DNA from: Methylobacter sp. | GTDB lineage: Bacteria; Pseudomonadota; Gammaproteobacteria; Methylococcales; Methylomonadaceae | Assembly (NCBI GenBank): GCA_026399025.1 | Contig: JAPLRU010000094.1 | Span: 18,628-82,627, forward strand | Reading direction: 5' to 3' | DNA length: 64,000 bases | Shown: in pieces, positions 17,862 to 38,906 of the stretch | Numbering within the stretch: the first letter of the stretch is position 1 | Layout: each line of letters begins with the position of its first letter | Notes under the pieces: model-generated | What the model saw: only the letters and a program-made list of their open reading frames with translations | Told to the model about the DNA's origin: nothing | The model's database searches: none | Program-made: the position numbers and the translations under genes

Positions 17862-18044
17862 ATGAAAACATTAACCATTCAAGTTGAAGATACTTTGTAT
17901 GATGCGTTATTGGAAATATTAGAAAATTTACCGAAACATAAAATCAAAATACAGGAAACGGAGAGCGACAACCGCCTCGATTTTGATCAAGCTATGGACT
18001 ACGCCCTGGATAAAAACGAAGAGCTATATAAACGGTTGTCCTAA
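17862..18044 (+). CDS. Small antitoxin partner of a Doc-like protein
   Basis: 60 residues, MKTLTIQVEDTLYDALLEIL at the start and strongly acidic or mixed-charge after residue 30. The N-terminus looks like a short beta strand plus helix, as in ribbon-helix-helix or Phd-type antitoxins, but I cannot name the family. A GGGGAGA site precedes the ATG at good spacing. Its stop codon shares a base with the start of the Doc-like gene (TAATG), so it is the presumed antitoxin. Confidence 0.65.
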   Translation: MKTLTIQVEDTLYDALLEILENLPKHKIKIQETESDNRLDFDQAMDYALDKNEELYKRLS

Positions 18045-18346
18045 TGCAATTATTAACGCTGGAACAGGTTTTAAAACTGCATAAGCGAGTCATTGAACAA
18101 TCAGGCGGCGCTATCGGAGTTCGCAATCAAGAAGGATTAGAATCCGCATTGGCACAGCCTCGCATGAGTTATGCAGATCAGGAGCTGTACCCGACATTAA
18201 TCGAAAAAGTAGCGGCGTTAGGTTTCTCTTTGATTAACAACCATCCGTTTGTCGATGGCAATAAACGTATCGGTCATGCCGCGCTTGAAGTTACCTTGCT
18301 GATGAATGGTTATGAAATACAAGCCGATGTTGATAGCTGGATGTAG
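18044..18346 (+). pseudogene. Fic/Doc toxin, C-terminally truncated by a palindromic repeat
   Basis: 100 residues. It has the Doc family core, including the Fic motif HPFVDGNKRIGH near residues 66-77, which phosphorylates EF-Tu in phage P1 Doc. Doc proteins normally continue for another 20-30 residues after NGYE.ADVD. Here the frame ends within two codons, because the stop codon (ATGTAG) is created by the repeat that begins at 18344. The catalytic motif is whole, so an active short form cannot be excluded. Loss of the final helix makes decay more likely. Confidence 0.7.
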
Positions 18347-18454
18347 GCCGGAATAAGCCCTCCCGGCGACAGCAAGGGTGGGCGTTTCCGGCGCTTCGGA
18401 GTGCCGGAAACGCCTGACCAGCGCATAAGGCGCGGACAGGCTTATTCCGGCCTA
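18344..18454. repeat. REP-like element, family B (TAGGCCGGAATAAGCC ends), copy 1
   Basis: TAGGCCGGAATAAGCC (18344-18359) and GGCTTATTCCGGCCTA (18439-18454) are perfect 16-bp inverted repeats, with an inner pair GGCGTTTCCGGC and GCCGGAAACGCC. Other copies are at 23921-24038, 27185-27237 (short form) and 43492-43560. This copy truncates the Doc toxin, and its right-hand flank is split by a further element. Confidence 0.9.
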
Positions 18455-18466
18455 CGTCCAAATGTG

Positions 18467-18613
18467 GGCTACCCACTTAAGCCGGGACAAGCGACACACA
18501 CCGGGAGCGCCGAGCCCCAGCTCGGCAATGTTGATCATTGTGGATACTCGCCAAGCTGGGGCTTGGCGTTCCCAGCCACTCGCTTAAAACTGTCCCGGCT
18601 TAAGTGGGTAGCC
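18467..18613. mobile_element. MITE of 147 bp with 23-bp terminal inverted repeats and an 8-bp target duplication
   Basis: The two ends are perfect 23-bp inverted repeats beginning GGCTACCCACTTAAGCCGGG. The element is bracketed by the direct repeat CAAATGTG (18459-18466 and 18614-18621). Removing the element and one duplicate restores a flank resembling the one after other family B copies (CCTACGTCGAGATGTGTATAA at 27234). An inner hairpin (GAGCCCCAGCT / AGCTGGGGCTT) fills the middle. No open reading frame; a transposase in trans is presumed. Confidence 0.85.
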
Positions 18614-18744
18614 CAAATGTGTATAAGGATGAGCTCCAGAGCGCGGGAACGATAAGAAAGAAATTCGATGGCCTGTTGCAGTGGTTGCCGCATACATCCT
18701 TAAAATTCAGCGTTTTTTACGCTTTAACATTATAAAAACTAAAC

Positions 18745-20391
18745 ATGGCCGACAACTACAACGATTACAGCCGCGAGGAATTGATTCGCGAATTGCGCCT
18801 GCGCGACCGGCGGCCCCGATTTGGCTTGGTTTGGGAGCGTAAAGAGATTGAGCATGAAAAAGCGGTCAATGACGATTTTGTCATGCTGGATTTTGACCCG
18901 GCGCTGTCCTGCGGCGATGCGCCGTATCGCAACCTGATTATTGAAGGCGATAACTTCGACGCCTTGCGCTATCTGCGCATGACTCATGCCGGTAAGGTCA
19001 AGTGCATTTATATCGATCCGCCGTATAACACCGGCAACCGCGATTTCATCTACAACGACCGTTTTGTCGATAAAGAAGATGCTTACCGGCATTCCAAATG
19101 GCTGGAGTTTATGTATCGGCGTCTGCAATTGGCAAAGGATTTACTGGCCGAGGATGGGGTAATTTTTGTTTCGATTGATGATAACGAGGTCTTTAACCTT
19201 GCACCTTTGATGAATCAAGTGTTTGGGGAACGCAATTTTATTGCTACAGCCATTTGGCAAAAGGTTTATTCGCCTAAGAATACCGCTATGCATTTTTCGG
19301 ACGATCACGAATATGTGCTGATTTACGCAATCAATCGTGATGTTTGGCGACCAAACGCTATACCAAGATCCGAAGCTCAAGATAAAGCTTACAAAAATCC
19401 GGATAACGATCCACGCGGCCTCTGGAAAGCTGGCGACTTATCGGCACGTAATTATTATGGCGAAGGCACTTATTCGATTATTTGTCCTTCTGGAAGAGCG
19501 ATTACTGGACCGCCACCGGGACGCTACTGGGTTATTTCACAAAATAAATTCAAGGAATTAGATGACGATAACCGTATTTGGTGGGGCAAGGATGGTAACA
19601 ATGTCCCGGCGATTAAGAGGTTTTTGTCGGGGGTTAAACAAGGCGTAGTACCTCAAACTCTTTGGAAATATGAAGAAGTGGGTCATACGCAGGATGCTAA
19701 GAAAGAAGTTCAGGAAGTCATGCAATTTGAGGATACCGCTTCCGTATTTTCTACACCAAAGCCTATTCGTCTGATCGAACGCATTCTGCGCATTGCCACC
19801 AAGCCTGATGACATTGTTCTGGATTTCTTTGCCGGTAGCGGCACAACCGCACACGCAGTCATGAAACTCAATGCCGAAGACGGCGGCAACCGTCGCTTCA
19901 TTCTGGTGTCCAGCACCGAAGCCACCGACAACGAGCCGGACAAAAATCTGTGCCGCGATGTCTGCGCCGAACGAGTAAAGCGTGTGATGCAGGGTTACGC
20001 CAACAAAAAAGGGGAAGCCGTTGCCGGGTTAGGCGGCAATTTCGCCTATCTGCGCACTAATCGCCTGCCTGCCGAAACCTTGTTCAGCAGCATTCAGCAT
20101 GAAGCTATCTGGACCGCGTTGCAGTTGATTCATGCTGAAAGTTTGTCGCCGTTTGCGGCCGATGCGCCGGTTCAGCAAGCGGTGCTCGAAAACAGCACGG
20201 TGCTGTATCTGCCCAAAATCAACGAAACGGTGTTAGGCGCCTTAAATACGGTGCGCGAGACTGCTTCAACGCTGGTTGTCTATAGCTGGCAGCCGGGTTT
20301 GCTGCGGCAACATTTTGAGGATCACCGTTTGAGTTTTCTACCGATTCCGCAGTTTTTAGTGGATCGTTTCGGCGCGGGGAGTAAGGCATGA
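18745..20391 (+). CDS. mod: Type III restriction-modification DNA methyltransferase (Mod)
   Basis: 548 residues. The catalytic motif DPPYNTGNRDFIYND begins near residue 90. The SAM-binding motif LDFFAGSGTTAHAV comes later, near 357-370, the order seen in beta-class amino-methyltransferases such as type III Mod. These make N6-methyladenine on one strand. The middle portion (about 180-320) should be the target recognition domain. Its stop overlaps the start of the res gene (ATGA), so the two subunits are translationally coupled. Confidence 0.92.
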   Translation: MADNYNDYSREELIRELRLRDRRPRFGLVWERKEIEHEKAVNDDFVMLDFDPALSCGDAPYRNLIIEGDNFDALRYLRMTHAGKVKCIYIDPPYNTGNRDFIYNDRFVDKEDAYRHSKWLEFMYRRLQLAKDLLAEDGVIFVSIDDNEVFNLAPLMNQVFGERNFIATAIWQKVYSPKNTAMHFSDDHEYVLIYAINRDVWRPNAIPRSEAQDKAYKNPDNDPRGLWKAGDLSARNYYGEGTYSIICPSGRAITGPPPGRYWVISQNKFKELDDDNRIWWGKDGNNVPAIKRFLSGVKQGVVPQTLWKYEEVGHTQDAKKEVQEVMQFEDTASVFSTPKPIRLIERILRIATKPDDIVLDFFAGSGTTAHAVMKLNAEDGGNRRFILVSSTEATDNEPDKNLCRDVCAERVKRVMQGYANKKGEAVAGLGGNFAYLRTNRLPAETLFSSIQHEAIWTALQLIHAESLSPFAADAPVQQAVLENSTVLYLPKINETVLGALNTVRETASTLVVYSWQPGLLRQHFEDHRLSFLPIPQFLVDRFGAGSKA

Positions 20392-22874
20392 CTATTGCGC
20401 CGAAAGGCTATCAGAATGACGCGGTAAACAACGCGCTGGAGATATTCCGTTACGCGGAAAACCAGTTGCAGCAGGTTGACGCCGCCCTAGACCAGTGCGC
20501 TATCAGCGCTTATAACGGTTGCGTGTTGCTGGAAGCTCCGACCGGCGCCGGTAAAACCTTAATGGCCGGGTTGATTGCGGAAAGTTTTGCCCGTCCCGAT
20601 CATCGCGATAATGCCAAGATTGTTTGGTTCTGGTTTACACCGTTTGCAGGCTTGGTGGAGCAGGCTAAAAGTGCGCTAAAGCGGGATTTTAACGGTTTGA
20701 AAATTCGCGATTTAGCCTGTGATCGTAAAACTTACAGCGCTGCCGGCGGCGATGTGTTTGTTACCACCTGGGCGTCGGTTGCCGCCCGCAATGCCGAAAC
20801 CCGCAAATTGCGCAGCAGCGGCGATTTATCGTTGTCGCTGGACGAGTTTATCCCGGAATTGCGCGACGCCGGGTTTCGGATTGGCGTGGTGGTCGATGAG
20901 GCGCACCATAGCTTTACCAAAGCGACGGAAACGGTGAATTTTTACCGGCAAGTCATGCGTCCTGAGTTTACCTTGCTGATTACCGCGACGCCGGACGATG
21001 CCGATGTCGAAAAGTTTAAAAAAGCCGCGGGGCTTGCGGTGATTCATCGCATTCAGGTTTCGCGGCAAAACGCGGTCGATGCCGGGCTGATTAAAGAGGC
21101 GGTCAAGTCGATTGCCTATTTGGTGCCGGAAGATCAAAAAGAGCTGGTCGATTTATCGGCAACCGCTTTGGAAGACGGCTGGCGCACGCATCAGGCGATT
21201 AAAGCACGGCTGGCTGAAGCCAAGATTCGGTTAACGCCGTTGATGTTGGTGCAAATCGGTAATAACGGTAAAGCGGGCGAAGCTGCGATTGAGCAAGCCA
21301 GGCAGCATTTAATAAACGCAGGTGTGCCGGAAGAGGCGATTGCCTGGTACACCGCCGACGATCCGAACGACGATTTGCTGGCTGTGGCGCGGGATGAAAG
21401 CAAAGAAGTTTTGATTTTTAAGGTGGCGGTCGCCTTGGGTTTCGATGCGCCGCGCGCCTTTACGCTGGTGTCGTTACGCGGTACCAAAAGCACCGATTTC
21501 GGCATTCAGGTGGTCGGGCGTATTTTAAGAGTGCATCCCCATTTACAGGCAATGGCGATCGGTAAAACCTTGCCGGAGGTATTGCGTTTTGGTTATGTAT
21601 TTTTAGCCGATGCGGAAAGTCAGGGCGGTTTGATTGGCGCGGGGGCAAAAATCAATGCGATTGCCACGCAGATGTCTGAAATTACGCCCTATACAATGGT
21701 GGTGAAATTAGGCGGTCAAACAGCGGTGCAGGTTTCCGCCGGCGGGCAAACGTCGATGTTGCCGCAACCTTATGTTGCCCCGGTTTGGCAACCGGCAGAC
21801 CCAGGCAACGCGGCTATTCAACCGCAAACGTCCTATGTATTGGGTTCAACCCAGGATGTTCTTGACGATTGGTTAATGCCGCAAACACCGCAGATTAAAG
21901 ACTTAGAAACTGTCGCGCCTTATCGTCCGACATTAGCCGGGAATAACCGGTTTGCATTACGCGAGGGTTTGCCTGATCGATTTAAAACAGAACGTTTGCC
22001 GCTCAGTACCGATGATCTGGTGCAATGCATCAGCAAGCGCATTGATTTGAATGCTCAGGTGTTGAATGCCGGTTTACGGAAAAATCTGAAAATCACCCGT
22101 AAAACGATTGATAATATTTTCGGTAAGTCGGATGAAACTGTCGATAGTATCCAAGCCCGGCTGTCGAATACCGATATTGCCAGACGTGCGCAAAAAGTTC
22201 TGTTCGATGCGGAGTTTATCGATCCTCGTGATCTGCATCCGCTATTGTTGGCGCGTTTGCAATCCGAATATAACGAGCATCAGGGGATGGATTTAAGTGA
22301 GCAGGAGCTGGCGCGGGCTCTGAATTTGATTTTGGCGACCTTTCCGCATTTGCTGCGCGATGCTTCGAAAGCTTGTGCCGCTCGCTTTAAAGAAGTTTTC
22401 GATGCCGAGATGCTGCCGCGATTTATCGACGCGCCGGATTGCATCGCCCGTTCCAGGCTTAATGTCTACGGCGTAATGCCGCCAGACCTTAATGACACCG
22501 AACGCCGCTTTGCCCGGATGCTGGATGCGGACACTGGCGGCTTGTTGGCTTGGTGGCATCGCAATGAAGCTCGTAAACCTTGGTCGGTAGGTATTGTTTT
22601 GCCCGGAGGCGGGCGTTATTTTCCTGATTTTATCGTGGGCTTGAATGGCCGACATTATGGCGATGGTGTGTTGCTGGTGGAGATTAAGGGCGGTCACATC
22701 GTTAATTACGGCGATACTCTGGAAAAAATTGATGCGGAACATAAACAGTATGGCAAACCATTAATGCTGACGGAACAAGACGATGGGCGGTTCTGGATCA
22801 TGCGTTATATCGAGTCAACTCGGAAAATCGAACAAGATCAAGTGTTTCGGGTTGAGAATATGGGGCAGTATTAG
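20388..22874 (+). CDS. res: Type III restriction enzyme helicase-nuclease subunit (Res)
   Basis: 828 residues. The superfamily 2 helicase core begins with APTGAGKT near residues 50-57. The Walker B box is VDEAHHSF near 168-175, ITATPDD follows near 200, and QVVGRILRVHP near 373-383 is motif VI. Near the C-terminus, FPDFIVG (about 745) and LLVEIKGG (about 761) form the PD-(D/E)XK nuclease site. Res with Mod cleaves unmodified DNA after ATP-dependent sliding. At 828 residues it is somewhat shorter than many Res proteins, but all motifs are present. The start overlaps mod by four bases. Confidence 0.92.
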   Translation: MTIAPKGYQNDAVNNALEIFRYAENQLQQVDAALDQCAISAYNGCVLLEAPTGAGKTLMAGLIAESFARPDHRDNAKIVWFWFTPFAGLVEQAKSALKRDFNGLKIRDLACDRKTYSAAGGDVFVTTWASVAARNAETRKLRSSGDLSLSLDEFIPELRDAGFRIGVVVDEAHHSFTKATETVNFYRQVMRPEFTLLITATPDDADVEKFKKAAGLAVIHRIQVSRQNAVDAGLIKEAVKSIAYLVPEDQKELVDLSATALEDGWRTHQAIKARLAEAKIRLTPLMLVQIGNNGKAGEAAIEQARQHLINAGVPEEAIAWYTADDPNDDLLAVARDESKEVLIFKVAVALGFDAPRAFTLVSLRGTKSTDFGIQVVGRILRVHPHLQAMAIGKTLPEVLRFGYVFLADAESQGGLIGAGAKINAIATQMSEITPYTMVVKLGGQTAVQVSAGGQTSMLPQPYVAPVWQPADPGNAAIQPQTSYVLGSTQDVLDDWLMPQTPQIKDLETVAPYRPTLAGNNRFALREGLPDRFKTERLPLSTDDLVQCISKRIDLNAQVLNAGLRKNLKITRKTIDNIFGKSDETVDSIQARLSNTDIARRAQKVLFDAEFIDPRDLHPLLLARLQSEYNEHQGMDLSEQELARALNLILATFPHLLRDASKACAARFKEVFDAEMLPRFIDAPDCIARSRLNVYGVMPPDLNDTERRFARMLDADTGGLLAWWHRNEARKPWSVGIVLPGGGRYFPDFIVGLNGRHYGDGVLLVEIKGGHIVNYGDTLEKIDAEHKQYGKPLMLTEQDDGRFWIMRYIESTRKIEQDQVFRVENMGQY

Positions 22875-22930
22875 CTTAATAAGGTTGCGCAGCGCTTAAA
22901 CGCAACAATTAGTTATATTCTCTGCCATCT

Positions 22931-22955
22931 GGGTAGGCTGGGTAGGCTGGGTAAC
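22931..22955. repeat. Short tandem repeat, 10-bp unit GGGTAGGCTG
   Basis: GGGTAGGCTG is repeated twice and a third partial copy (GGGTAAC) follows, in the gap between res and the convergent PIN toxin. No other feature is seen in 22875-23014. Confidence 0.6.
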
Positions 22956-23014
22956 ATATTTTCGTTGCGCAAAACTTTTTTTACAAAAAAACGTCTTATA
23001 GAGTCCGAAGCGCC

Positions 23015-23392
23015 CTATTTCCTGATAAAAAGCACCTCATCAAGATAATCTTGAAAAATAGCATCGTAAGTTACAATGCGCAGCTTTTCGTACTTGGCTT
23101 GGGCGATCAGCAATCGGTCAAACGGGTCTTTATGATGATCGCCCAATTCAAGAACGGTTTGGGCATGGTAGGGAGTAATATTCAGCCATTGAAAACCTTG
23201 CGCTGCAATATCTTCCGCGATGTGCCGCGAAGGCAAGGTCATTTTACCCAAGCCGTTTTTGATTGCCATTTCCCAGACCGTCACCGTACTGACCAATGCC
23301 CCTTCGGCCTGAATCTGTTCGATGATCGGGCGGTGTTTGATTTCGCCCATCAGCCAGTCATAAACGATACAGGTATCAAGCAGCAGACGCAT
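23015..23392 (-). CDS. PIN domain toxin (VapC family)
   Basis: 125 residues. The four PIN acids are recognisable: Asp in LLLDTCIVYDWL, Glu in STVTVWEMAIKNGLG near residue 41, and Asp in KDPFDRLLIAQA near 88-92 and in VTYDAIF near 108. KDPFDR is typical of the YacL/VapC subgroup. The start overlaps the end of its Phd antitoxin by 17 bases. It is convergent with the type III restriction operon. Confidence 0.92.
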   Translation of the reverse strand: MRLLLDTCIVYDWLMGEIKHRPIIEQIQAEGALVSTVTVWEMAIKNGLGKMTLPSRHIAEDIAAQGFQWLNITPYHAQTVLELGDHHKDPFDRLLIAQAKYEKLRIVTYDAIFQDYLDEVLFIRK

Positions 23393-24296: not shown

Positions 24297-25025
24297 ATGT
24301 TTAAAAACCCGTTTATCAAACAACTGTTCGGCAGTTTTCTGGACTTGGCGCCCATCCTTGCGGTTGTTTTGGTGTTCCAGGTGTTGGTTATTCGGCAGCC
24401 TATTCCCGATGTCGCCAGTTTAATGGTCGGCACGGTGTTTGTGATTATCGGTCTGACTCTGTTTGTTCAAGGACTTGAGCAAAGCCTGTTCCCGATCGGC
24501 GAGGCGATGGCTTATGCGTTCGCGCGCAAAGGCAGTTTATTTTGGTTGCTGACTTTTTCTTTTTGCCTGGGGTTCGGCACGACGGTGGCGGAACCCGCAT
24601 TAATCGCTATCGCCCAGGAAGCCGCAAGCATTGCCGCAAAAGCCGGCATTATCGCAGCCGGCGATGACGCTAAAGCCGATTATGCCTTGGGCTTACGCAT
24701 TACCGTTGCGCTGTCGGTCGGCTTTGCTATTTTGGTCGGCGTATTAAGGATTATCCGCGGCTGGCCTTTGTATTACCTGATTATCGGCGGTTATTGCGGG
24801 GTGATTGCGATTACGCCGTTCGCGCCGCCTGAAATTATCGGCATCGCTTACGATTCCGGCGGCGTTACCACCTCGACCATTACCGTTCCCCTGGTGACCG
24901 CGCTGGGCGTCGGTTTGGCGACCGCGATTAAAGGCCGCAATCCGATGATTGACGGTTTCGGGCTGATCGCTTTTGCTTCGTTAACGCCGATGGTTTTCGT
25001 GATGGCTTACGGGGTGCTCAAATGA
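24297..25025 (+). CDS. DUF1538 family membrane protein, first subunit
   Basis: 242 residues with about six hydrophobic spans. Family hallmarks are [17 protein letters not shown] (near 93-109) and [20 protein letters not shown] (near 183-202), then [20 protein letters not shown]1538 proteins are multi-pass inner-membrane proteins, predicted transporters of unknown substrate. Here the two halves often found fused are separate genes that overlap by four bases. The downstream PII-like and CBS proteins suggest regulation by nucleotides. Confidence 0.88.
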
Positions 25026-25801
25026 TAGCCTGGATGAACCATTTTGCACTGGTGCTGCTGAGCACCTGCCGGGATATTTTACCGATTGCCGCCATTATTA
25101 TCGGCTTTCAATTGCTGGTTATCCGCAAACCCTTGGCGCATCCTAAAAAGTTACTGCGCGGCTTTGTTTATGTTCTGCTCGGCATCGCGTTTTTTCTGGA
25201 AGGTCTGGAAATGGCGCTGTTTCCGTTGGGCAAGCTGATGGCGGCCCAACTCACTACACCGGAGTTTCTCGGCATTAATCCCGCCGAACAAGGGGTAAGA
25301 TGGCAAGCCTATTTCTGGGTGTATGTATTCGCCGCCAGCATCGGTTTTGCCACTACGCTGGCCGAACCGTCCTTACTGGCGGTGGCCTGGAAGGCCGAGC
25401 AGATTTCCGGCGGCGCTATCCGCGCTTGGGGACTGCGCATTGCGGTTTCGATCGGCGTCGCTTTCGGCATTGCGCTGGGCGCGTATCGCATTGTGACCGG
25501 TACCGAGCTTTATTATTATATTGTGGTCGGCTATGTCATCGTGCTGATACAAACCCTGTTTGCACCCAAAGTGATCATCGGCTTGGCTTATGACTCGGGC
25601 GGGGTAACGACGTCAACGGTTACGGTGCCGCTGGTGACCGCGCTGGGTCTCGGTTTGGCCTCCACTATTCCCGGCCGCAACCCGCTGCTGGACGGCTTCG
25701 GCTTGATTGCCTTCGCCAGTTTATTTCCCATCATTGCTGTCTTGGGTTATGCGCAAATCGCACAATGGCTTAGCAAAGGCAGTATTTCTCCCAAACCCTG
25801 A
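25022..25801 (+). CDS. DUF1538 family membrane protein, second subunit
   Basis: 259 residues, clearly homologous to the preceding gene: [40 protein letters not shown] and [17 protein letters not shown] are near-copies of the first subunit's motifs. About seven hydrophobic spans. The start overlaps the previous stop (ATGA). The two products probably form an inverted or pseudo-symmetric heterodimer. Substrate unknown. Confidence 0.88.
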
Positions 25802-25809
25802 GGACAACT

Positions 25810-26160
25810 ATGCATTTCAAATTAATTATCGTCTTTGTCGAAGACGACAAAACCGACCTGGTGCTTGATACCGCGCGCGAGCACGGCGCTAAAGGCGCCA
25901 CCGTGGTCAATAACGCGCGCGGCGAAGGCATGAAACAATCGAAAACTTTTTTCGGCCTGAGTCTGGAAGCTCAGCGCGATGTTTTATTGTTGTTGGTCGA
26001 AGAGCATCTGAGTCGACATATTTTGGAAGCCATCGCTAAGGTCGCGCAATTCGACAGCAAACCCGGCACCGGCATTGCCATTCAGATCGATGTCGAAGAC
26101 GCGGTCGGCGTTATGCATCAGGTCGAACGCTTAACTCAAGAATTGGAGGATAAAATATGA
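25810..26160 (+). CDS. PII-like nitrogen-regulator family protein
   Basis: 116 residues with the ferredoxin-like PII pattern: FKLIIVFVEDDKTDLVLDTA at the start, GAKGATVVNNARGEGM at the first loop, and PGTGIAIQIDVEDAVGV near the C-terminus. The T-loop differs from GlnB (no Tyr51-type site is evident), so it is a PII-like sensor rather than a classical GlnB. Such proteins bind adenine nucleotides and gate membrane partners. Its partner here is presumably the DUF1538 pair. GAGGACA precedes the start. Confidence 0.8.
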   Translation: MHFKLIIVFVEDDKTDLVLDTAREHGAKGATVVNNARGEGMKQSKTFFGLSLEAQRDVLLLLVEEHLSRHILEAIAKVAQFDSKPGTGIAIQIDVEDAVGVMHQVERLTQELEDKI

Positions 26161-26567
26161 TTGCGCCACGCGTTATAATCCGCGTCAGAGACGTGATGAA
26201 AACCGATTTCGCCACCATCGACGGCATTGCCACCGTAGAAGATGCGCTAAAAAAGATGAAGACCTTTAAAACCTCGGTGCTGATTGTCAATAAGCGCCAT
26301 GACGATGACGAATACGGTATGATTAATTCCGGCGACATTGCCCGTCATGTGTTGGCCAAGGACCGTGCGCCGGATCGGGTCAACGTCTATGAAATTATGA
26401 GCAAGCCGGTGATTTCGGTGCATCCCGACATGGACATCCGGTATTGCTCACGCTTATTTGCTAATTATAATTTGGTCAGAGCGCCGGTCATTGAAAATAA
26501 TATAATTATCGGCGTGGTCAGTCCGAATTCGCTGGTGCTGGATGGGATGTACCAGACTTGTCATTAA
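26157..26567 (+). CDS. CBS domain protein
   Basis: 136 residues with two CBS motifs: VMKTDFATIDGIATVEDALK near 16-35, and IMSKPVISVHPDMDIRYCSR near 79-98 followed by RAPVIENNIIIGVVSPNSLV. CBS pairs bind adenosine nucleotides and regulate transporters and enzymes. It is the last gene of the DUF1538 operon, overlapping the PII-like gene by four bases. Both accessory genes encode nucleotide-sensing modules. Confidence 0.88.
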   Translation: MIAPRVIIRVRDVMKTDFATIDGIATVEDALKKMKTFKTSVLIVNKRHDDDEYGMINSGDIARHVLAKDRAPDRVNVYEIMSKPVISVHPDMDIRYCSRLFANYNLVRAPVIENNIIIGVVSPNSLVLDGMYQTCH

Positions 26568-26580
26568 AAGGCCGTTTATT

Positions 26581-27093
26581 ATGTTCAAATTATTACGATT
26601 TAATTCAAGAATCTGGTTTTTTCTGGGTTGTTTAGGTTGCGTGTTTTTGCTGTCGATGGGCGCTTATTTTCAATTTGTTCAAGGCCTGGACCCGTGTCCT
26701 TTATGCATTTCGCAACGCATTGCCATCTTGCTGACCGGCGTGGTCTTTTTAACGGCGGCCCTTCATAATCCAGGGCAAACCGGGGTAACCGCTTACGCGA
26801 TTTCAGGTGCGCTAACCGCTTTGTGCGGCGCGGCGATTTCAACCCGGCATGTCTGGATTCAGCATTTGCCTGCCGATAAAGTGCCGGAATGCGGCCCCGG
26901 TTTGGACTACGTGCTGCAAAATTTTCCTTTGTTTGAGACGGTTAAGCTAATGCTCAGCGGCACCGGCGATTGCGCCAAAGTGGACTGGACAATGTTCGGC
27001 TTCAGTATGCCTGCCTGGACCTTGCTGGCTTTTTTGATGTTGGCAACGTTAAGTGTGCTGCAAATTTGGAATTATAAAGAAGCCGACAGATAG
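26581..27093 (+). CDS. dsbB: Disulfide bond formation protein DsbB
   Basis: 170 residues from ATG 26581; an earlier in-frame ATG would add 13 residues overlapping the CBS gene and is unlikely. Four membrane spans are seen. The first periplasmic loop has the redox pair in PCPLCISQR (near residues 39-47). The second loop has the DsbA-facing cysteines in PECGPG (near 104) and GDCAKVDW (near 128). DsbB re-oxidises DsbA and passes electrons to quinone. It sits 13 bases after the CBS gene and may share its transcript without sharing its function. Confidence 0.93.
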   Translation: MFKLLRFNSRIWFFLGCLGCVFLLSMGAYFQFVQGLDPCPLCISQRIAILLTGVVFLTAALHNPGQTGVTAYAISGALTALCGAAISTRHVWIQHLPADKVPECGPGLDYVLQNFPLFETVKLMLSGTGDCAKVDWTMFGFSMPAWTLLAFLMLATLSVLQIWNYKEADR

Positions 27094-27237: not shown

Positions 27238-27312
27238 CGTCGAGATGTGTATAACAATGAGCGTAGCGCGTGGCAACAAGACAAAATCGACCTTTCATTG
27301 CGCACCTTCCAC

Positions 27313-30300
27313 ATGCAAGCACTCATTGAACTTTTTGGCATTAAAGGCTTTATCCCGCATGGCTATTGTCTGTCGTGGAGTCCGGTATTACTTTGGCTAC
27401 ACGTTGTTTCGGATCTGCTGATTACGCTCTCCTATTATTCCATTCCGCTGATGCTGGTCTATTTTATCCGGCGGCGCAAAGACTTTCCCCATCAGGTATT
27501 GGCTACGATGTTTGCCGGATTTATTGTGGCCTGCGGCAGTACCCATTTACTGTCCGCTATCACAATCTGGATACCCTTGTACTGGTTGGACGGTCTAGTT
27601 AAAGGTTTTACCGCGATTATTTCGGTCGTTACTGCGGTGGGAATACTTAGGATTATTCCCCAGCTTCTGCATTTGCCCAGTGCAACACAACTGCAAATTG
27701 AGATAGACCAAAGAAAAGCCGCCGAGCAAGAGCTACGTATTGCCAATGCCGAGTTGCAAAAAAATAACGCACATACCCAGTTACTGCTGGATTCGGCGCT
27801 GGATGGAATCGTCAGCATGGACCAGAACGGTAAGGTGATCGGCTGGAATGCCCAAGCCGAACATATTTTCGGTTATACCGGCAGGCAGGCCTTAGGCTGC
27901 GACTTGGCCGAGTTAATCATTCCGCCCGCTTATCGGGAAAAACACCGGCAAGGCCTATCGCGGTTTACCGGCACGGGACTATCGAACATTCTCGGTACGC
28001 GTTTGGAAGTGATCGGTTTGCGCGGCGAAGCGGTTGAATTTCCGATGGAGTTGACTGTCGACGCCATCAAGCACAAGGACGGCTATTTTTTTAGCGCCTA
28101 TGTTCGCGATATTTCGGAACGTAAGCAGGCCGAGGCGGCGCAGCAAGAAGCCCTAGACAAACTGTATAAAATAGCCTGCCAACTGCCCGGCGTGGTGTTT
28201 CAATTTCGTTTACGTCCTGACGGAAGTTGTTGTCTTCCCTATGCCAGCAAAGTGCTGTTCGACATTTACCGTATCGATCCCGAAGACGTACTTGACGATG
28301 CCTCTGCCCTGTTTGCCGTGGTTCATCCTGACGACTTAGCGCAACATTTGGCTTCCATTCATGCGTCAGCGCGCGATTTAAGCCCGTGGCGCAACGAATA
28401 TCGGCTTAAATTTGCCGACGGCAGCGAATGCTGGCTGTTCGGCAACGCCTTACCGCAACGCGAAGCGGACGGCTCGGTGCTTTGGCACGGTTTTGTGAGC
28501 GATATTACCGAGCGCCGAATGATCGAAGATGCCTTGCGGGAAAGCGAATTTCGCTGGAAGTTCGCTATCGAAGGCTCCGGCGACGGCCTTTGGGACTGGG
28601 ACGTCGCCCATAGCACGGTATTTTTTAGCAAACGTTGGAAAGAAATGCTGGGCTTTGCCGAAAATGAAATCGACAATAGCTTGGAAGAGTGGGCGAAGCG
28701 TATTCATCCCGATGATAAGGCCGATGTTTTAGCCGTAGTGCAGGATTACTTCGACGGTAAAATTCCGGTTTACCTTACCGAGCACCGGGTGAGCTGCAAG
28801 GACGGCGGCTACAAGTGGATACTCGACCGCGGTATCGTGGTCAGCCGCGATGCGGGCGGTAAACCGTTGCGCATGATCGGTACGCACACCGACATCACCG
28901 AGCACAAACAAATGGAGCAAAAATTGCGCGACAGCGATGCATTTAATGTCGGCATCCTCAACTCGCTGAGCTCGCATATTGCCGTCCTGGATGCACAGGG
29001 TGTTATTGTCGCGGTTAATGACGCTTGGCGGCGGTTTGCCAGAGAAAACGGTTTAATGGAATCGGATCAGGATATGTTGGGGGTTAACTATTTGGATGCC
29101 TATAACCAATCTTACTCCGATGAGGCAAGCATTGCTCAAGCAGGTATTTTGGCGGTGTTGCAGGGCAAACAGGAAAGCTTTCATTTAGAGTACCCATGCC
29201 ATTCGTCCAATCAGCAACATTGGTTTTACATGAACGTAGCGCCATTACATGGCTCTCGTCAAGGTGCTGTAGTCAGTCATAAAAATATCACCGAACGCAA
29301 AAAAGCGGAAGAGATTGCTCAAGCCGCGTCTCAATACGCGCGCAGCTTAATTGAAGCGAGTTTAGATCCCTTGGTGACGATCAGCGCTGAAGGCAAGATC
29401 ACCGATGTTAACACCGCCACCGAACATGTGACCGGCATGAGCCGGGATAAGTTGATCGGCAGCGATTTTGCGGATTATTTCACCGATCCGGCGCAAGCAC
29501 GCGCAGGCTATCTGCGGGTGTTTTCCCAAGGTTTTGTGACCGATTATCCTCTGGCTATTCGACATCTGTCCGGTAAGGTTACCGATGTGCTTTATAACGC
29601 CAGCGTGTACCATGATGGTAAGGGTAACGTGCTTGGCGTGTTTGCTGCGGCGCGTGATATTACCGAGCGTAAACAGGCGGAGCTGGCACAACATCATAGT
29701 GAAGAGCAGTTGCGGGCATTTTATGAATTGGACTTGGTCGGCTTAACGATTACTTCACCTGAAAAGGGCTGGATTCGGATTAACGACAGCCTGTGCAAAA
29801 TGCTGGAATACCCGGAACAAGCTTTACATCAAATGACCTGGGTGGAACTGACGCATCCCGACGATTTAGCCGCCGACGTTGAGCAATTCAATCGCTTGCT
29901 GGCGAATGAAATTAACGGCTATGCCTTGGAAAAGCGCTTTGTCAGTCGCACCGGCAAAATCATTCCGACTCAATTAGTCGTGCGCAGTGTGCGCAAAGCC
30001 AATGGCGAACTGGATTATGTGGTGGCGATGGTCGAAGACATCAGCGAATACAAGCAGGCCGAAGCCGAACTGAAACGCTCCAACACCGAGCTGGAGCAAT
30101 TCGCCTATGCGATTTCACACGATATGCGCCAGCCCTTACGCATGGTGAACAGTTATTTGTCTTTGATTGAGAACGCCTTGGCCGGACAGATGAATGAAGA
30201 AACCCAACAGTTTCTGAATTTTGCCATGGACGGCGCAAAACGCATGGATGCGATGATTTTATCGTTGCTGGATTATTCTCGGGTCGGGCGTAAATCCGAA

Positions 30301-30777
30301 GCCAAAACAAGAATCGGCAGCAAGCTTTCTTTAGATGAAGCGCTGGCTTTTCTAGGCCCCGAAATCAGAACTTCCGGCTGCGAAGTTAAAATAACCGGCG
30401 AATGGCCCGAATTATTCGCCAGCCGGGATGAATTAACGCGGCTGTTGCAAAACCTGATTGGCAATGCGTTAAAATATCACGACGAAAATCAAGCGCCTCA
30501 GGTTCATGTTCATGGCATGATCAAAGCCGATTCGTTACGGGTCGAAGTGCGCGATCAGGGTATCGGTATCGAGCCGAGTCAAATAGATCGGCTGTTTAAA
30601 GTGTTTTCACGGTTACAGGCGCGCAGCCGTTTTGACGGCACCGGCGTAGGCTTGGCATTGTGCCGAAAAATTGTCGAACATCATGGCGGCACGATTGGCG
30701 TAGAATCGGCGGGCGAAGGACAGGGCTGTCTGTTTTGGTTCGAGCTGCCTATTATCAACGCTGCCGCTCCGGAATAA
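27313..30777 (+). CDS. Ethylene-receptor-like (ETR1 N-terminal domain) multi-PAS sensor histidine kinase
   Basis: 1154 residues from ATG 27313. A GTG at 27247 extends the frame but lies in repeat sequence, while homology starts near FIPHGYCLSW (residue 13). Residues 25-125 hold three membrane spans that match the plant ETR1/cyanobacterial Etr1 sensor domain. Asp34, Tyr41, Ile44, Pro45, Ile71, Cys74 and His78 line up with ETR1 Asp25, Tyr32, Ile35, Pro36, Ile62, Cys65 and His69, which bind copper and ethylene. About six PAS/PAC units follow (roughly 150-930). HisKA (ISHDMRQPLRMV, about 933-944) and HATPase (NALKYHD, DQGIGIEPS, GTGVGLALC) end the protein. It has no receiver of its own, and two separate receivers are encoded downstream. 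Ethylene sensing is inferred from residues only. Confidence 0.88.
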   Translation: MQALIELFGIKGFIPHGYCLSWSPVLLWLHVVSDLLITLSYYSIPLMLVYFIRRRKDFPHQVLATMFAGFIVACGSTHLLSAITIWIPLYWLDGLVKGFTAIISVVTAVGILRIIPQLLHLPSATQLQIEIDQRKAAEQELRIANAELQKNNAHTQLLLDSALDGIVSMDQNGKVIGWNAQAEHIFGYTGRQALGCDLAELIIPPAYREKHRQGLSRFTGTGLSNILGTRLEVIGLRGEAVEFPMELTVDAIKHKDGYFFSAYVRDISERKQAEAAQQEALDKLYKIACQLPGVVFQFRLRPDGSCCLPYASKVLFDIYRIDPEDVLDDASALFAVVHPDDLAQHLASIHASARDLSPWRNEYRLKFADGSECWLFGNALPQREADGSVLWHGFVSDITERRMIEDALRESEFRWKFAIEGSGDGLWDWDVAHSTVFFSKRWKEMLGFAENEIDNSLEEWAKRIHPDDKADVLAVVQDYFDGKIPVYLTEHRVSCKDGGYKWILDRGIVVSRDAGGKPLRMIGTHTDITEHKQMEQKLRDSDAFNVGILNSLSSHIAVLDAQGVIVAVNDAWRRFARENGLMESDQDMLGVNYLDAYNQSYSDEASIAQAGILAVLQGKQESFHLEYPCHSSNQQHWFYMNVAPLHGSRQGAVVSHKNITERKKAEEIAQAASQYARSLIEASLDPLVTISAEGKITDVNTATEHVTGMSRDKLIGSDFADYFTDPAQARAGYLRVFSQGFVTDYPLAIRHLSGKVTDVLYNASVYHDGKGNVLGVFAAARDITERKQAELAQHHSEEQLRAFYELDLVGLTITSPEKGWIRINDSLCKMLEYPEQALHQMTWVELTHPDDLAADVEQFNRLLANEINGYALEKRFVSRTGKIIPTQLVVRSVRKANGELDYVVAMVEDISEYKQAEAELKRSNTELEQFAYAISHDMRQPLRMVNSYLSLIENALAGQMNEETQQFLNFAMDGAKRMDAMILSLLDYSRVGRKSEAKTRIGSKLSLDEALAFLGPEIRTSGCEVKITGEWPELFASRDELTRLLQNLIGNALKYHDENQAPQVHVHGMIKADSLRVEVRDQGIGIEPSQIDRLFKVFSRLQARSRFDGTGVGLALCRKIVEHHGGTIGVESAGEGQGCLFWFELPIINAAAPE

Positions 30778-33602: not shown

Positions 33603-34879
33603 GCGAAGTTAAAGCGATTCGGGTATTGCTGGTAGAAGACGAAGCCGGCGACGCGCATCTGGTTAAAATGAAATTAAGACAAACCCAAAGCGGGCATTTC
33701 GATGTCAGCTGGGCTCAATCGCTGATTGAGGCGCAACAATGCTTGGCCGCCGCCTCTTTTGACGTGATGCTGCTGGACTTGTCGCTACCCGACTCGGAAG
33801 GTTTGGCAACGGTACACAGCGCGCGCGCCATGGCGCTGAATACCCCTATCGTCGTGCTCAGCGGACATAGCGATACCGATTTTGCGCTAACGGCCCTGGA
33901 AGCCGGGGCGGTGGATTACATGGTTAAAGGCGACTTTGGCTATGATGGCTTAGCCCGAGTAATCCGTTACGCGTTGTTGCGAACCGAAATGGAGGCGAGG
34001 AACCATTTACTGATAGCGGCGTTGGAAGCGGCGGCCAACGGCATTGTGATTACCGATAAAGATGCCGTGGTTATTTGGGCTAATCCGGCTTTTAGCCGAT
34101 TGACCGGTTACAGCGCGGAAGAAGCGTTGGGCCGTAAACCGAGTGAACTGATCAAATCCGGCTTACAAAATGAAGCTTTTTACCAAGCCATGTGGGCCGA
34201 TCTTCTGGAGGGGCAGCATTGGCGCGGCGAACTGGTTAATAAACGCAAAAACGGCAGCTTGTATCACGAGGAACTGAGTATTGCGCCGGTGAAAAACGGC
34301 GCGGGTGAAATCACTCATTTTATCGGCATAAAAGAGGACATTAGCGAACGTAAGGAGATGGAGCAACAATTACAGAAACTGGCCAGCACCGACCCTTTGA
34401 CCGGGCTGTTCAATCGCCGCGTGTTTTTGGAACGACTGGAACTGGAACGCGCGAAAGTAGCGCGTTTGCGCCATTATTCAACGGTATTGTTAATGCTGGA
34501 TTTGGATTTTTTTAAGCGGGTTAACGACACTTACGGGCACGCTACCGGGGATGCGGTGTTAAAAGCGTTTGCCGACATCGCCCGTAATAATTCGCGGGCC
34601 ATTGACGTTCCCGCCCGTTTGGGTGGCGAAGAATTTGCTATTTTATTGGCCGGCGCTAATAAAAAAGATGCTCTGACCATGGCCGAACGCTTGCGTCGCC
34701 AGGTTGCCGAAATCATTATCGAGCATGAAGCCGGACCGGTGCAAATTACTGTCAGCATCGGCGCCGCGGTTTTATTGGCAGAGGATATCGACGGCGAAGC
34801 GGTATTGCATCGCGCCGATGCGGCGTTGTATGAAGCTAAGGACCGAGGCCGCAATCAAACCTATTGGTCTTGCTTTTAA
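33599..34879 (+). CDS. Receiver-PAS-GGDEF diguanylate cyclase
   Basis: 426 residues. An N-terminal receiver (about 1-128) has the phospho-Asp in LLDLSLPDSEGLA near 62. A PAS domain spans about 135-255. The C-terminal GGDEF domain (about 262-425) has the active-site loop RLGGEEFAILL near 343-353, a catalytically competent GGEEF. A product-inhibition RxxD site is not obvious. It should make cyclic di-GMP under control of one of the upstream kinases, linking the sensor cluster to surface or motility behaviour. The start overlaps the previous stop by four bases. Confidence 0.93.
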   Translation: MSEVKAIRVLLVEDEAGDAHLVKMKLRQTQSGHFDVSWAQSLIEAQQCLAAASFDVMLLDLSLPDSEGLATVHSARAMALNTPIVVLSGHSDTDFALTALEAGAVDYMVKGDFGYDGLARVIRYALLRTEMEARNHLLIAALEAAANGIVITDKDAVVIWANPAFSRLTGYSAEEALGRKPSELIKSGLQNEAFYQAMWADLLEGQHWRGELVNKRKNGSLYHEELSIAPVKNGAGEITHFIGIKEDISERKEMEQQLQKLASTDPLTGLFNRRVFLERLELERAKVARLRHYSTVLLMLDLDFFKRVNDTYGHATGDAVLKAFADIARNNSRAIDVPARLGGEEFAILLAGANKKDALTMAERLRRQVAEIIIEHEAGPVQITVSIGAAVLLAEDIDGEAVLHRADAALYEAKDRGRNQTYWSCF

Positions 34880-34923
34880 GGTAACTCACACTAATACCCC
34901 CTCAGCTATCGTTCCCACGCTCC
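34879..34923. repeat. Dispersed repeat, family C, copy 2
   Basis: AGGTAACTCACACTAATA, a C-run, then CAGCTATCGTTCCCACGCTC, starting on the last base of the cyclase stop codon. It runs directly into the family A element that follows. Confidence 0.8.
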
Positions 34924-35305: not shown

Positions 35306-36115
35306 ATGAAATATATCTTATTAATTCTTTTACTGGCCGGCGGTGCTTTCCCGATCCCGCAAGCTGTTGCGAAAACAAACGCTTTGCAACATGCAATCGC
35401 CGGAAAACACCGTTCTATAGCCCATAAAAAACGGGATAAATATCGACACCCGCAACAGACGCTGAATTTTTTCGACGTTAAGGACAACATGACCGTTGTT
35501 GAAGTCTGGCCGGGCGAAGGCTGGTATACGGAAATTCTTGCGCCTTATCTAAAAGACCGCGGCAAACTGTATGCCGCCCATTTTTCAGCCGATGCCGAAC
35601 CGTCTTATTTTAAAAAAAATCGGCGTGAATTTATTAAAAAGCTCAAACGCCGTCCGAAAGTTTACGGCAAAGTCCAACTAACGGTATTGCAGCCGCCGAA
35701 ATTTTTGCAGATAGCCCCGGCAAACTCGGCTGATCGGGTTTTAACCTTCCGCAATGTGCATAACTGGATGAAAGATGACCAAGCGGCCGCGGTATTTAAC
35801 GCGATGTACAAAGCATTAAAGCCCGGCGGCATTTTAGGCGTGGTCGAGCATAGAAACTCCACCTTAAAACCGCAAGATCCTAAAGCCGAATCCGGTTATG
35901 TCAGCGAGGACTATGTGATTGCATTGGCACGGAATGCGGGCTTTGAGTTTCTGGCAAAATCCGAAATCAACGCCAACAAAAAGGACAGCAAGAATTACCC
36001 CGAAGGCGTCTGGACCTTACCGCCCGCCTTAAAGCTCAAAGACAAGGATAGAAAAAAATATCTGGCTATCGGCGAAAGCGACCGAATGACGATTAAATTC
36101 ATTAAGCCCCGTTAA
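35306..36115 (+). CDS. Secreted class I SAM-dependent methyltransferase-like protein
   Basis: 269 residues with a signal peptide (about 1-22, ending QAVAK). The mature protein has a Rossmann methyltransferase fold: motif I VVEVWPGEGWYTEIL (near 63-77), LTFRNVHNWM (near 148-157) and LKPGGILGVVEHR (near 171-183). The family of exported methyltransferase-like proteins is widespread in proteobacteria, though SAM is not known to be available in the periplasm. An unusual ligand or a structural role is therefore possible. No operon partner. Confidence 0.8.
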   Translation: MKYILLILLLAGGAFPIPQAVAKTNALQHAIAGKHRSIAHKKRDKYRHPQQTLNFFDVKDNMTVVEVWPGEGWYTEILAPYLKDRGKLYAAHFSADAEPSYFKKNRREFIKKLKRRPKVYGKVQLTVLQPPKFLQIAPANSADRVLTFRNVHNWMKDDQAAAVFNAMYKALKPGGILGVVEHRNSTLKPQDPKAESGYVSEDYVIALARNAGFEFLAKSEINANKKDSKNYPEGVWTLPPALKLKDKDRKKYLAIGESDRMTIKFIKPR

Positions 36116-36677: not shown

Positions 36678-38906
36678 ATGGTCAAGTTGCAAAGCGGGAG
36701 CGAGTTGATTTTCAGAGTAGCCATTGCGCTTCCTGTCCATCGACTCTTTGATTATCTTGCCCCGGAACAGTTGGCGTCGACCCAAATCAAGCCGGGCATT
36801 CGCCTGGAAGTGCCTTTCGGCAAAGCGAAAAAAATAGCCTTTCTGGTCGAGTGCGTTCCGCATAGCGACATCGACATTGCTAAATTAAAGCGCGTCGAAC
36901 GGATACTGGACGAAAAACCGTTGCTATCAACAAAAGACTTGGCGCTGCTGCATTGGGCCGCCGGTTATTATCATCATCCGTTGGGTGAGGTTTTCAGTGC
37001 GGCATTTCCTGTCGCCTTGCGTCAGGGCAAAGCCGCCGTTATTCAAACAGAGAAACGTTACACCCTCACCGAGTCGGGCAAAGCGCTTGACGGCGAATTG
37101 CTAAAGCGCGCGCCCAAGCAAAAAAGCATGCTGGAAAAATTTCAAGCGCAACCGAACGCGTTGTCCGAAACGGAACTTTCGGCATGGAACAGCAACTGGC
37201 GAGCCTCGGTAAAACAATTGCAAGACAAGCAATTGCTACAGCTTACCGCATCGGATTTAACGAGGGGCGCATCCAATCCGATCATCAAGAGCACCGCCCT
37301 ACCCTGTAATACCGAACAGCAAGCGGCGGTCGATACGGTGTGCGGCAGTTTGGGCCAGTTCGGCGTTTTCCTGCTGGAAGGCGTAACCGGCAGCGGCAAA
37401 ACCGAAGTGTATATGCAGATTATTCATGCCGTGCTGGAACGGGGCCGTCAAGTTTTGGTGCTGTTGCCTGAAATTACCTTGACGCCTCAGCTTGAGGACC
37501 GTTTCAGGCAACGCTTTAACGTCAGCATCGCCATTTCGCATTCCAAATTGACCGACCGGCAACGGGCCGGCGCTTGGCTGACCATGCAGCGCGGCGAATG
37601 CTGCATTTTATTGGGCACCCGGTCGGCTTTGTTTACGCCGTTAAAAAATCCCGGCCTGATTATTCTCGATGAAGAGCATGACGCTTCGTTCAAGCAGCAG
37701 GAAGGGTTTCGCTTTTCCGCCCGCGATGTCGCGGTGGTGCGCGGCAAGCTGTTGAATATTCCGGTGTTGCTGGGTTCGGCGACGCCGGCGCTGGAAAGCC
37801 TGCAAAACGTCAACAACCAACGTTACCGCTTGCTGCATTTGCCGGAACGGGCGGGCAACGCGACGGCGCCGGTGTTGCAACTGTTTGACATCAGAAACAA
37901 AAAAATGCAGGAGGGTTTGTCCGAAGCGCTTATTACGGAAATGCGCCTTACGCTGGACAAGAACGAACAGGTGTTATTGTTTTTAAACCGGCGCGGCTTT
38001 GCGCCGACTTTAATCTGTCACAGTTGCGCTTGGGTTGCGCGTTGTCGGCGTTGCGACGCCAACTTGGTGATTCATTACGATGAAAAGGTGCTGCGTTGCC
38101 ATCATTGCGGCCAGGAGCAGCGCCTGATCAGGCAATGTCCCGCCTGCACAAGCGGAGAATTAACGCCGCTGGGACTCGGCACCGAGCGGGTGGAAAAAGC
38201 CTTAGCTGAAATTTTTGCCGATAAAACCGTGGTGCGGCTGGATCGGGATTCGACTCAACGCAAAGGTTCATTGGAAAAGTATTTGCAGCAAATCAATCAG
38301 GGCGCGGTGGATATTATTCTGGGTACGCAAATGCTGGCGAAAGGCCATCACTTTCCGAATGTGACGCTGGTGGCGATATTGGACGTAGACAGCGGCCTGT
38401 TCAGCATCGATTTTCATGCGCCGGAAAAACTCGCGCAAATGATTGTGCAAGTCTCCGGTCGCGCCGGACGCGCGGAAAAGCCAGGTCGAGTGATTATGCA
38501 AACCCGGCAACCGGAGCATCCCTTATTAACCGCGCTGATTGCCCAAGGTTACAACAGTTTTGCCCAAACCGCGCTGGCCGAGCGTAAAGAGGCGTCATTG
38601 CCGCCGTTCAGTTATCAGGCCTTATTGAGAGTAGAAGCCGCGGATGCCGAGATGCCGAAGCTGTTTTTGCAGGCGGTTGTTGACTTGGCGAAAGCGCATA
38701 GCCAAGGCCATACCGATATTTTGGGGCCGGTTGCCGCGCCAATGGCCCGGCGCGCCGGGCTTTACCGCTATCAATTACTGTTTCAGAGCGGCAGGCGGCC
38801 GGAATTGCATGTCTTGCTGGATGTGCTGATGCCGCTTATCGAAAAGCTCAAGCTGGCGAAAAAGGTGCGCTGGTCGCTGGATGTCGATCCGGTGGATTTG
38901 TATTGA
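36678..38906 (+). CDS. priA: Primosomal protein N' (replication restart helicase)
   Basis: 742 residues, typical PriA length. The N-terminal DNA-binding domain starts IFRVAIALPVHRLFDYLAP. The helicase core has EGVTGSGKTEVY (about 234-245), the DEEHD box LDEEHDASFKQQEGFR (about 330) and VSGRAGRAEKPGRV. The PriA-specific zinc cluster is present between the helicase lobes: CHSCAWVARCRRC, CHHCGQ, CPAC (about 448-490). PriA reloads the replisome at stalled forks. It is followed by a convergent tandem-repeat region. Confidence 0.97.
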   Translation: MVKLQSGSELIFRVAIALPVHRLFDYLAPEQLASTQIKPGIRLEVPFGKAKKIAFLVECVPHSDIDIAKLKRVERILDEKPLLSTKDLALLHWAAGYYHHPLGEVFSAAFPVALRQGKAAVIQTEKRYTLTESGKALDGELLKRAPKQKSMLEKFQAQPNALSETELSAWNSNWRASVKQLQDKQLLQLTASDLTRGASNPIIKSTALPCNTEQQAAVDTVCGSLGQFGVFLLEGVTGSGKTEVYMQIIHAVLERGRQVLVLLPEITLTPQLEDRFRQRFNVSIAISHSKLTDRQRAGAWLTMQRGECCILLGTRSALFTPLKNPGLIILDEEHDASFKQQEGFRFSARDVAVVRGKLLNIPVLLGSATPALESLQNVNNQRYRLLHLPERAGNATAPVLQLFDIRNKKMQEGLSEALITEMRLTLDKNEQVLLFLNRRGFAPTLICHSCAWVARCRRCDANLVIHYDEKVLRCHHCGQEQRLIRQCPACTSGELTPLGLGTERVEKALAEIFADKTVVRLDRDSTQRKGSLEKYLQQINQGAVDIILGTQMLAKGHHFPNVTLVAILDVDSGLFSIDFHAPEKLAQMIVQVSGRAGRAEKPGRVIMQTRQPEHPLLTALIAQGYNSFAQTALAERKEASLPPFSYQALLRVEAADAEMPKLFLQAVVDLAKAHSQGHTDILGPVAAPMARRAGLYRYQLLFQSGRRPELHVLLDVLMPLIEKLKLAKKVRWSLDVDPVDLY

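Follow-up and report, generated by a model that had tools for sequence, protein, structure and literature searches.

The window analysed here was a stretch of 64,000 nucleotides from Methylobacter sp. (Bacteria; Pseudomonadota; Gammaproteobacteria; Methylococcales; Methylomonadaceae), namely positions 18,628 to 82,627 of the forward strand of contig JAPLRU010000094.1 in the assembly GCA_026399025.1. It contained a gene for a sensor histidine kinase whose N-terminal domain was of the type found in plant ethylene receptors (ETR1_N), followed by a second kinase gene, a receiver gene and the gene of a predicted diguanylate cyclase, the enzyme class that makes cyclic di-GMP (c-di-GMP). The host genome (5.2 Mb, 138 contigs) had two loci of the AMO family, one in a pmoCAB-like operon and the second resembling the pxm type; the gene names at both loci are those that we take them to bear from their sequences. 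Because its genome carried these AMO-family genes, which include the particulate methane monooxygenase (pMMO), the host was considered a methanotroph. This agreed with the probable methanotroph assumed in an earlier account of the window made from the letters alone (hereafter the sequence-only reading).

The sensor domain of the ETR kinase

The product of the ETR kinase gene carried a true ETR1_N domain. In a Pfam profile scan, PF25487 matched residues 26-121 with an E-value of 5.4e-36 and 123.2 bits (cut-off 27), and the phospho-acceptor motif of the HisKA domain read SHDMRQPL. The start codon was the ATG at 27313, which matched the start in aligned relatives, and an in-frame GTG at 27247 was a possible alternative.

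The sensor was aligned with four plant receptors, seven bacterial sequences (six cyanobacterial and one BRC1 record) and three paralogues from the host genome. Neither block of key residues contained a gap with respect to the plant rows, and D34, Y41, I44, P45, I71, C74 and H78 of the window protein stood opposite D25, Y32, I35, P36, I62, C65 and H69 of plant ETR1. The numbers Y32, I35, P36 and I62 are those that we presume for the remaining ethylene-binding positions. The numbering of D25, C65 and H69, as well as the requirement of seven residues for ethylene binding by ETR1, was taken from PMC11819568. K97 of the window protein was opposite the plant helix-3 lysine, ahead of which three plant residues were inserted. 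This lysine is K91 in ETR1, the partner of D25, and modelling of ETR1 indicated that D25 helps to position H69 and contacts K91 (PMC11819568). Thus, the sequence-only reading, which had placed an ethylene-receptor-type sensor on a multi-PAS kinase at this gene, aligned it without gaps to ETR1 through both key blocks and listed the seven residues as kept, was right in its open reading frame (ORF), its coordinates, its alignment and its domain assignment.

The predicted structure of residues 1-150 (50 aligned sequences) had a mean predicted local distance difference test score (pLDDT) of 83.7 and contained helices at residues 24-54, 61-84 and 90-119, then at 124-149. In this model, the D/Y/I/P positions sat on helix 1 and the I/C/H positions on helix 2. 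A sequence search of solved structures returned none related to the sensor, and a Foldseek search with the model returned no match at E 0.001 or better. We predict a Cu(I) site in the membrane domain of the ETR kinase, the sensor helices presumably being inserted in the membrane and loaded with Cu(I), with ethylene as the putative ligand.

The agreement with the plant sensor went beyond chance. Retention of all seven residues was nevertheless common among prokaryotic ETR1_N domains and was thus ordinary when taken alone. It was seen in 129 of 185 such domains, namely in 100 of 140 from the family, in 23 of 38 from outside it and in 6 of the 7 cyanobacterial and BRC1 rows (in all counts, family, order and class are those of the host: Methylomonadaceae, Methylococcales and Gammaproteobacteria). 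Over the 185 domains, C74 and H78 were each conserved at 97% and D34 at 89%, and C74 and H78 ranked 6th and 8th in conservation among 134 columns. The rows L260 and L279 had F and G at the C74 column, possibly owing to misalignment.

A further motif, H16-G-x-C19, lay right before helix 1 and was encoded at 27358-27369. Its histidine was present in 97% and its cysteine in 96% of the 185 prokaryotic domains; the motif was absent from the four plant rows, and the plant receptors had a CxC at the N-terminus where the bacterial rows had H-G-x-C. Both H16/C19 and C74/H78 were kept in 173 domains, only C74/H78 in 2, only H16/C19 in 4 and neither in 6 (Fisher p 1e-7), a coupling that is confounded by relatedness and by a few divergent sequences and serves as a lead only. 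H16/C19 may form a second copper site or a disulfide site. The dsbB gene adjoined the ETR gene upstream, which was no more than suggestive.

A four-gene unit and its natural fusion

The gene order ETR kinase, second kinase, receiver, receiver-PAS-GGDEF was found in eight loci (the window, L096, L097, L101, L123, L258, L279 and L297), in six of which the second kinase had a CHASE match. A PAS-kinase took the place of the second kinase in L297, and a 374-amino-acid (aa) ORF together with a PAS-kinase did so in L096. In the window, L096, L097 and L123 the unit lay between umpA-umpB-like, P-II-like, CBS and dsbB genes on one side and a methyltransferase-like gene and priA on the other (Table 1). 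These flanks were partly present in L101 and L297, and none was matched in L258 and L279, from which shorter stretches were read.

A different arrangement occupied the same site in another genome (Methylobacter sp. isolate E6_concoct.bin.28, G083). Here, a single ORF of 695 aa (locus L128) lay between the same flanks in place of the four genes, and it joined an N-terminal ETR1_N-PAS sensor to the C-terminal part of the cyclase. Its residues 397-695 shared 84% identity with residues 128-426 of the window cyclase and 89% with the cyclase of Methylobacter tundripaludum. At the DNA level, the window segments 27313-28113 and 33989-34880 matched the ORF at its two ends (80 and 81%), and only a 50-base piece of the approximately 5.9 kb between them had a match at L128. 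The fusion was unlikely to be an assembly error because a second copy, P0006, was 98% identical to it and lay on a different, 81-kb contig. One genome encoded the sensor and the enzyme in different genes and another had them joined at the corresponding site, so the two very probably belong to one pathway. The natural fusion was the strongest evidence that the output of the sensor is likely to be c-di-GMP; it speaks to the output and not to the ligand. The c-di-GMP link proposed in the sequence-only reading gained its support from this fusion. The same reading had recorded a receiver and a diguanylate cyclase beside the kinase, both of which were recovered by Pfam, and made no mention of the CHASE kinase between them.

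Within the unit of the window, the receiver gene and the receiver-PAS-GGDEF gene overlapped by 4 bp. The receiver-PAS-GGDEF protein had a GGEEF signature, with RAID (RxxD) five residues ahead of it, and is a predicted diguanylate cyclase. Terminator-like and promoter-like sites were within about one standard deviation of shuffled sequences, so the case for co-transcription rests on spacing and conservation.

The CHASE domain of the second kinase was related by sequence to the PDB entries 6k62 (E 1.2e-13), which we take to be PcrK, and 3t4j (E 3.7e-7), named Histidine kinase 4; AHK4. Its segment RDAYTSIIF aligned with RDEYAPVIF of 3t4j. CHASE is a domain of cytokinin receptors; despite the relatedness to known receptors, the kinase was not assigned to the class of cytokinin receptors. 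Two domain types that plants use for hormones adjoined each other in the unit. In the upstream flank, the two DUF1538 genes were UmpA/UmpB-like, with scores under the NCBIfam cut-off.

Table 1. Features of the ETR kinase locus in the window
Feature	Position	Strand	Evidence
ETR1_N - multi-PAS - HisKA - HATPase sensor histidine kinase, 1154 aa	27313..30777	+	PF25487 123 bits, several PAS folds, HisKA 42 bits, HATPase_c 89 bits
Ethylene-receptor-type sensor domain, residues 1-150 (D34, Y41, I44, P45, I71, C74, H78, K97, H16-G-x-C19)	27313..27762	+	
CHASE - PAS - histidine kinase, 707 aa	30976..33099	+	PF03924 234 bits, HATPase_c 74 bits, no HisKA match
Single-domain response regulator (receiver), 151 aa	33147..33602	+	PF00072 72.5 bits
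Receiver - PAS - GGDEF response regulator, 426 aa	33599..34879	+	GGDEF 158 bits
dsbB, conserved, adjoining the ETR gene upstream	26542..27093	+	PF02600 153 bits
Two DUF1538 genes, P-II-like and CBS genes; conserved upstream flank marking the syntenic site	24297..26567	+	
Methyltransferase-like gene, conserved downstream flank	35306-36115	+	name presumed from sequence
priA, conserved downstream flank	36678-38906	+	name presumed from sequence

Connection of ETR1_N with c-di-GMP enzymes in the family

The host genome had four ETR1_N genes, including the one in the window. The paralogue C17 (L007) encoded an ETR1_N-PAS-GGDEF-EAL protein of 1183 aa with all seven residues, and C24 (L008) an ETR1_N-PAS-kinase of 1000 aa that also had all seven residues and no output gene adjoining it. 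The third paralogue, C5 (L009), encoded an ETR1_N-kinase-receiver protein of 602 aa with Y instead of I44, and it overlapped by 4 bases a downstream gene for a receiver-HD_5 protein. The HD_5 domain would, from what is known of its family, be a c-di-GMP phosphodiesterase. In total, three of the four host ETR1_N genes were fused to, or stood beside, a c-di-GMP-type enzyme domain. Methylobacter tundripaludum SV96 (G110) had the same four-gene unit and five further ETR1_N matches (six in all), and genomes of the family contained up to six ETR1_N genes.

For a wider view, we classified the ETR1_N proteins of 142 family loci and 41 loci outside the family, the latter drawn from the class and phylum samples, with near-identical proteins collapsed. 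Domains were called with profiles built from the window and paralogue sequences, Pfam being used for the window genes, the paralogues and five fused family examples, in which it confirmed both GGDEF and EAL. Three loci (L213, L214 and L230) were left out, as the purpose-built profile found no ETR1_N ORF in them. Among 140 distinct family proteins, 61 were GGDEF fusions, of which 56 also contained EAL, a proportion that holds for a set covering most of the family matches, the weakest ones lying outside it. Another 14 were kinases with a gene for a receiver-c-di-GMP-enzyme protein in the same gene run (downstream in 12 cases), 59 were other kinases, 5 were of other types and 1 was cut off. L096 was placed among the 59 other kinases on account of a 255-base gap that exceeded the 250-base limit, though the unit was present there. 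The corresponding numbers outside the family (n = 38) were 1 fused protein, from a genome of the same order, 4 kinases with a receiver-enzyme gene, 25 other kinases, 8 of other types and none cut off. The difference between the two sets gave p 2e-7 for GGDEF fusion and p 6e-6 for any c-di-GMP link, values that are optimistic since the sequences are related. No PF00990 or PF00563 was seen by eye among 120 listed relatives of one alphaproteobacterial receptor, which were close copies of one type.

In a domain tree of 133 columns and 189 rows (88 of 185 inner branches open), the family sequences clustered, and the fused and kinase forms needed 12 changes within the family, a count made without shuffles. 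The tree was too weak to place the window or to date the steps, and phylogeny was not used as an argument.

Two other features were observed near fused genes. A similar protein of 91-102 aa (MKLFELG...) was encoded ahead of ETR1_N-PAS-GGDEF genes at L007:4033-4308 and at 13 further loci, the 14 loci having been chosen for an ORF of that size seen there. Moreover, the stretch L065:1-12363 was a dense c-di-GMP cluster in which an ETR1_N-PAS-GGDEF gene was followed by PAS-GGDEF, hybrid-kinase-like and receiver-PAS-GGDEF genes.

Distribution of ETR1_N among genomes

Of 201 family genomes, 116 had ETR1_N at a score above the cut-off and 119 had a match of any score, and 18 of 20 genomes of the host's genus had some match. 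Restricting the family set to genomes with a completeness of 90% or more and a contamination of 5% or less gave 96 of 159 with a match. In the class outside the order, 11 of 365 genomes had the domain over the cut-off, the class draw being limited to genomes at least 90% complete and the family draw having no such limit. The class draw also included five order genomes, as counted in the listed part of a nearest-kin-first list of non-matching genomes, and four of these five had ETR1_N over the cut-off. The domain was over the cut-off in 31 of 397 genomes of the phylum draw and was found in none of 14 control genomes. Thus, ETR1_N is enriched in the family in comparison to the class outside the order.

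A proposed route from ethylene to c-di-GMP

We explain the locus as a methanotroph kinase of the ETR1 type that binds ethylene or a similar small ligand and, via a phosphorelay, sets cyclase activity and c-di-GMP; we consider this explanation a little better than an even chance. Ethylene, or a similar small ligand, would likely be bound at the predicted Cu(I) site in the membrane domain of the ETR kinase. A phosphorelay from this kinase through the neighbouring receivers would then control how active the predicted receiver-PAS-GGDEF cyclase is, and thereby the level of c-di-GMP. The CHASE kinase would probably feed a second, periplasmic ligand into this output. What the cell likely gains is a switch between attached and motile states, or readiness for stress, as ethylene levels go up in wet soil or sediment and pMMO there would turn the gas into toxic epoxyethane. 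The co-oxidation of ethylene by pMMO, which yields toxic epoxyethane, and the harm that ethylene does to methanotrophs in this way have been described (PMC11507031). The passage of the signal to a c-di-GMP enzyme is likely because a related species has the same sensor type fused to the catalytic part of a cyclase. The pairing of kinase and receivers, the sign of the effect and the activity of the cyclase are parts of this scheme that we infer.

Several observations weigh against this explanation. Our literature searches found no binding, copper or c-di-GMP measurement for proteins of this bacterial family. The 59 family kinases counted above, among them the paralogue C24, had no c-di-GMP gene in the same run, and among the 120 nearest relatives listed for the window sensor GGDEF was seen, by eye, only in P0006. 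The fusion held only the PAS-GGDEF half, without both kinases and the receivers, and so it points to a linkage of sensor and cyclase and not to a phosphorelay. Its sensor was no strict orthologue of the window sensor (46% over 572 aa, and 58% over 466 aa to L101). ETR1_N was also present in bacteria outside the methanotroph order, and within the family it did not follow the AMO-family genes: 102 genomes had both, 65 had AMO alone, 17 had ETR1_N alone and 17 had neither (Fisher p 0.25). In the class sample, ETR1_N was found in none of the seven AMO carriers outside the order. An association of ETR1_N with AMO-family genes was dropped on these two results. The sequence-only reading had tied the sensor to methane monooxygenase; the physiological reason for this tie, the epoxyethane formed by pMMO, still stands (PMC11507031), and the genomic side of it does not.

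The metal itself might be the signal. The domain would then report the supply of Cu(I) rather than ethylene, which we regard as unlikely. Copper supply governs methane monooxygenase in methanotrophs, and the host had AMO-family (pMMO) genes. C74 and H78 were among the most conserved columns, and the second His/Cys pair H16 and C19, not found in the four plant rows, tended to go together with them when they were lost. However, Y41, I44, P45 and I71 were kept as well, and in the excerpts used here these are needed for ethylene binding and are not named as copper ligands. Furthermore, the Cu(I) dissociation constant of ETR1, 1.3e-15 M, fits a fixed and tightly held cofactor (PMC6586836), no copper-related family was found among the nine window proteins scanned, and ETR1_N was not associated with AMO carriers.

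The same site could instead sense a different Cu(I)-binding small gas, for example carbon monoxide, acetylene, O2 or a methane-derived species, and this too we hold to be improbable. A Cu(I) pocket is predicted here, and Cu(I) sites of this kind can bind other small ligands. However, all seven residues were those defined for ethylene binding, and SynEtr1 and AzoEtr1, two bacterial receptors described in PMC11819568, bind ethylene.

Finally, ETR1_N might be only a membrane anchor and dimeriser, with signals coming from the PAS domains or the CHASE kinase, and several PAS domains indeed followed it in numbers that varied among syntenic sites, but this is very unlikely given that at one syntenic site the sensor was constant and the part after it varied (second kinase and receivers, or a GGDEF fusion) and that the polar C74, H78 and D34 in the predicted helices, unneeded for an anchor, were conserved at 97, 97 and 89%.

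Comparison with known systems

The kinase for which we propose ethylene binding and a c-di-GMP output had counterparts among described systems. AzoEtr1 of Azospirillum brasilense likewise belongs to the ETR1-type kinases of proteobacteria. It combines PAS with histidine kinase domains, has the seven residues and a response regulator gene just downstream, binds ethylene and affects biofilm (PMC11819568). Unlike the window kinase, it has 525 aa and one PAS domain, its regulator has 135 aa and no recognisable output motif, and its host is a plant-associated non-methanotroph (PMC11819568). SynEtr1 of Synechocystis is also a bacterial ETR1-type receptor kinase; it signals by phosphorelay to a response regulator and affects the cell surface and biofilm, but in contrast to the window kinase it is a light receptor as well, and its output runs via a regulator of a small RNA (PMC11819568, PMC6682694). 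Plant ETR1 shared with the window protein the ETR1_N domain, the seven binding residues, the helix-3 lysine and the histidine kinase core. In the Pfam lists it had a GAF domain where the window protein had a PAS array, and its output is mainly kinase-independent (PMC11819568). The PcrK/PcrR system of Xanthomonas resembles the unit in having a CHASE kinase, and its response regulator has phosphodiesterase activity, whereas the output of the window unit was a predicted cyclase. PcrK/PcrR senses cytokinin, and no ETR1_N partner is described for it in the excerpt used (PMC7072313).

Bacterial ETR-type proteins have already been said to have a wide range of outputs (PMC7700396), and proteobacterial ethylene receptors have been read as likely sensors of plant hosts (PMC11819568). 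None of the papers listed in our literature searches dealt with methanotroph receptors of the ETR1 type or with fusions of ETR1_N to GGDEF, reviews being outside the scope and absence from print unproven. What is new here is a set of ETR1-type receptors in methanotrophs with a probable c-di-GMP output, backed by a natural fusion; the kind itself was known. More tentatively, and with less than even confidence, we suggest that the family may run a dedicated network from gas to c-di-GMP. In such a network, an expanded set of ETR1-type receptors would sense ethylene and drive c-di-GMP enzymes directly by fusion or through a compact unit that would also read a second, CHASE-type ligand. The H-G-x-C pair would lie at the mouth of the copper site on the periplasmic side and form part of a gate for copper or ligand. 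If methanotrophs use these receptors, the ethylene of flooded soils would act on methane consumers both as a regulatory signal and as a poison. Moreover, the natural fusions would be ready one-protein sensors, with gas in and c-di-GMP out, for probing what the domain detects.

Other observations in the window

A 300-aa gene at 40950-41852 contained a repeat-like in-frame segment (PPTPPFAKGG... / PLCKRGARGDF) at 41378-41686, and a 263-aa gene was found at its place in L128. The region 18044-23392 held a short Fic/Doc-like ORF, and a DNA methyltransferase and helicase/nuclease-like pair that resembled a type III restriction system. The opposite strand held a PIN-like ORF; these names are all ones that we presume from the sequences.

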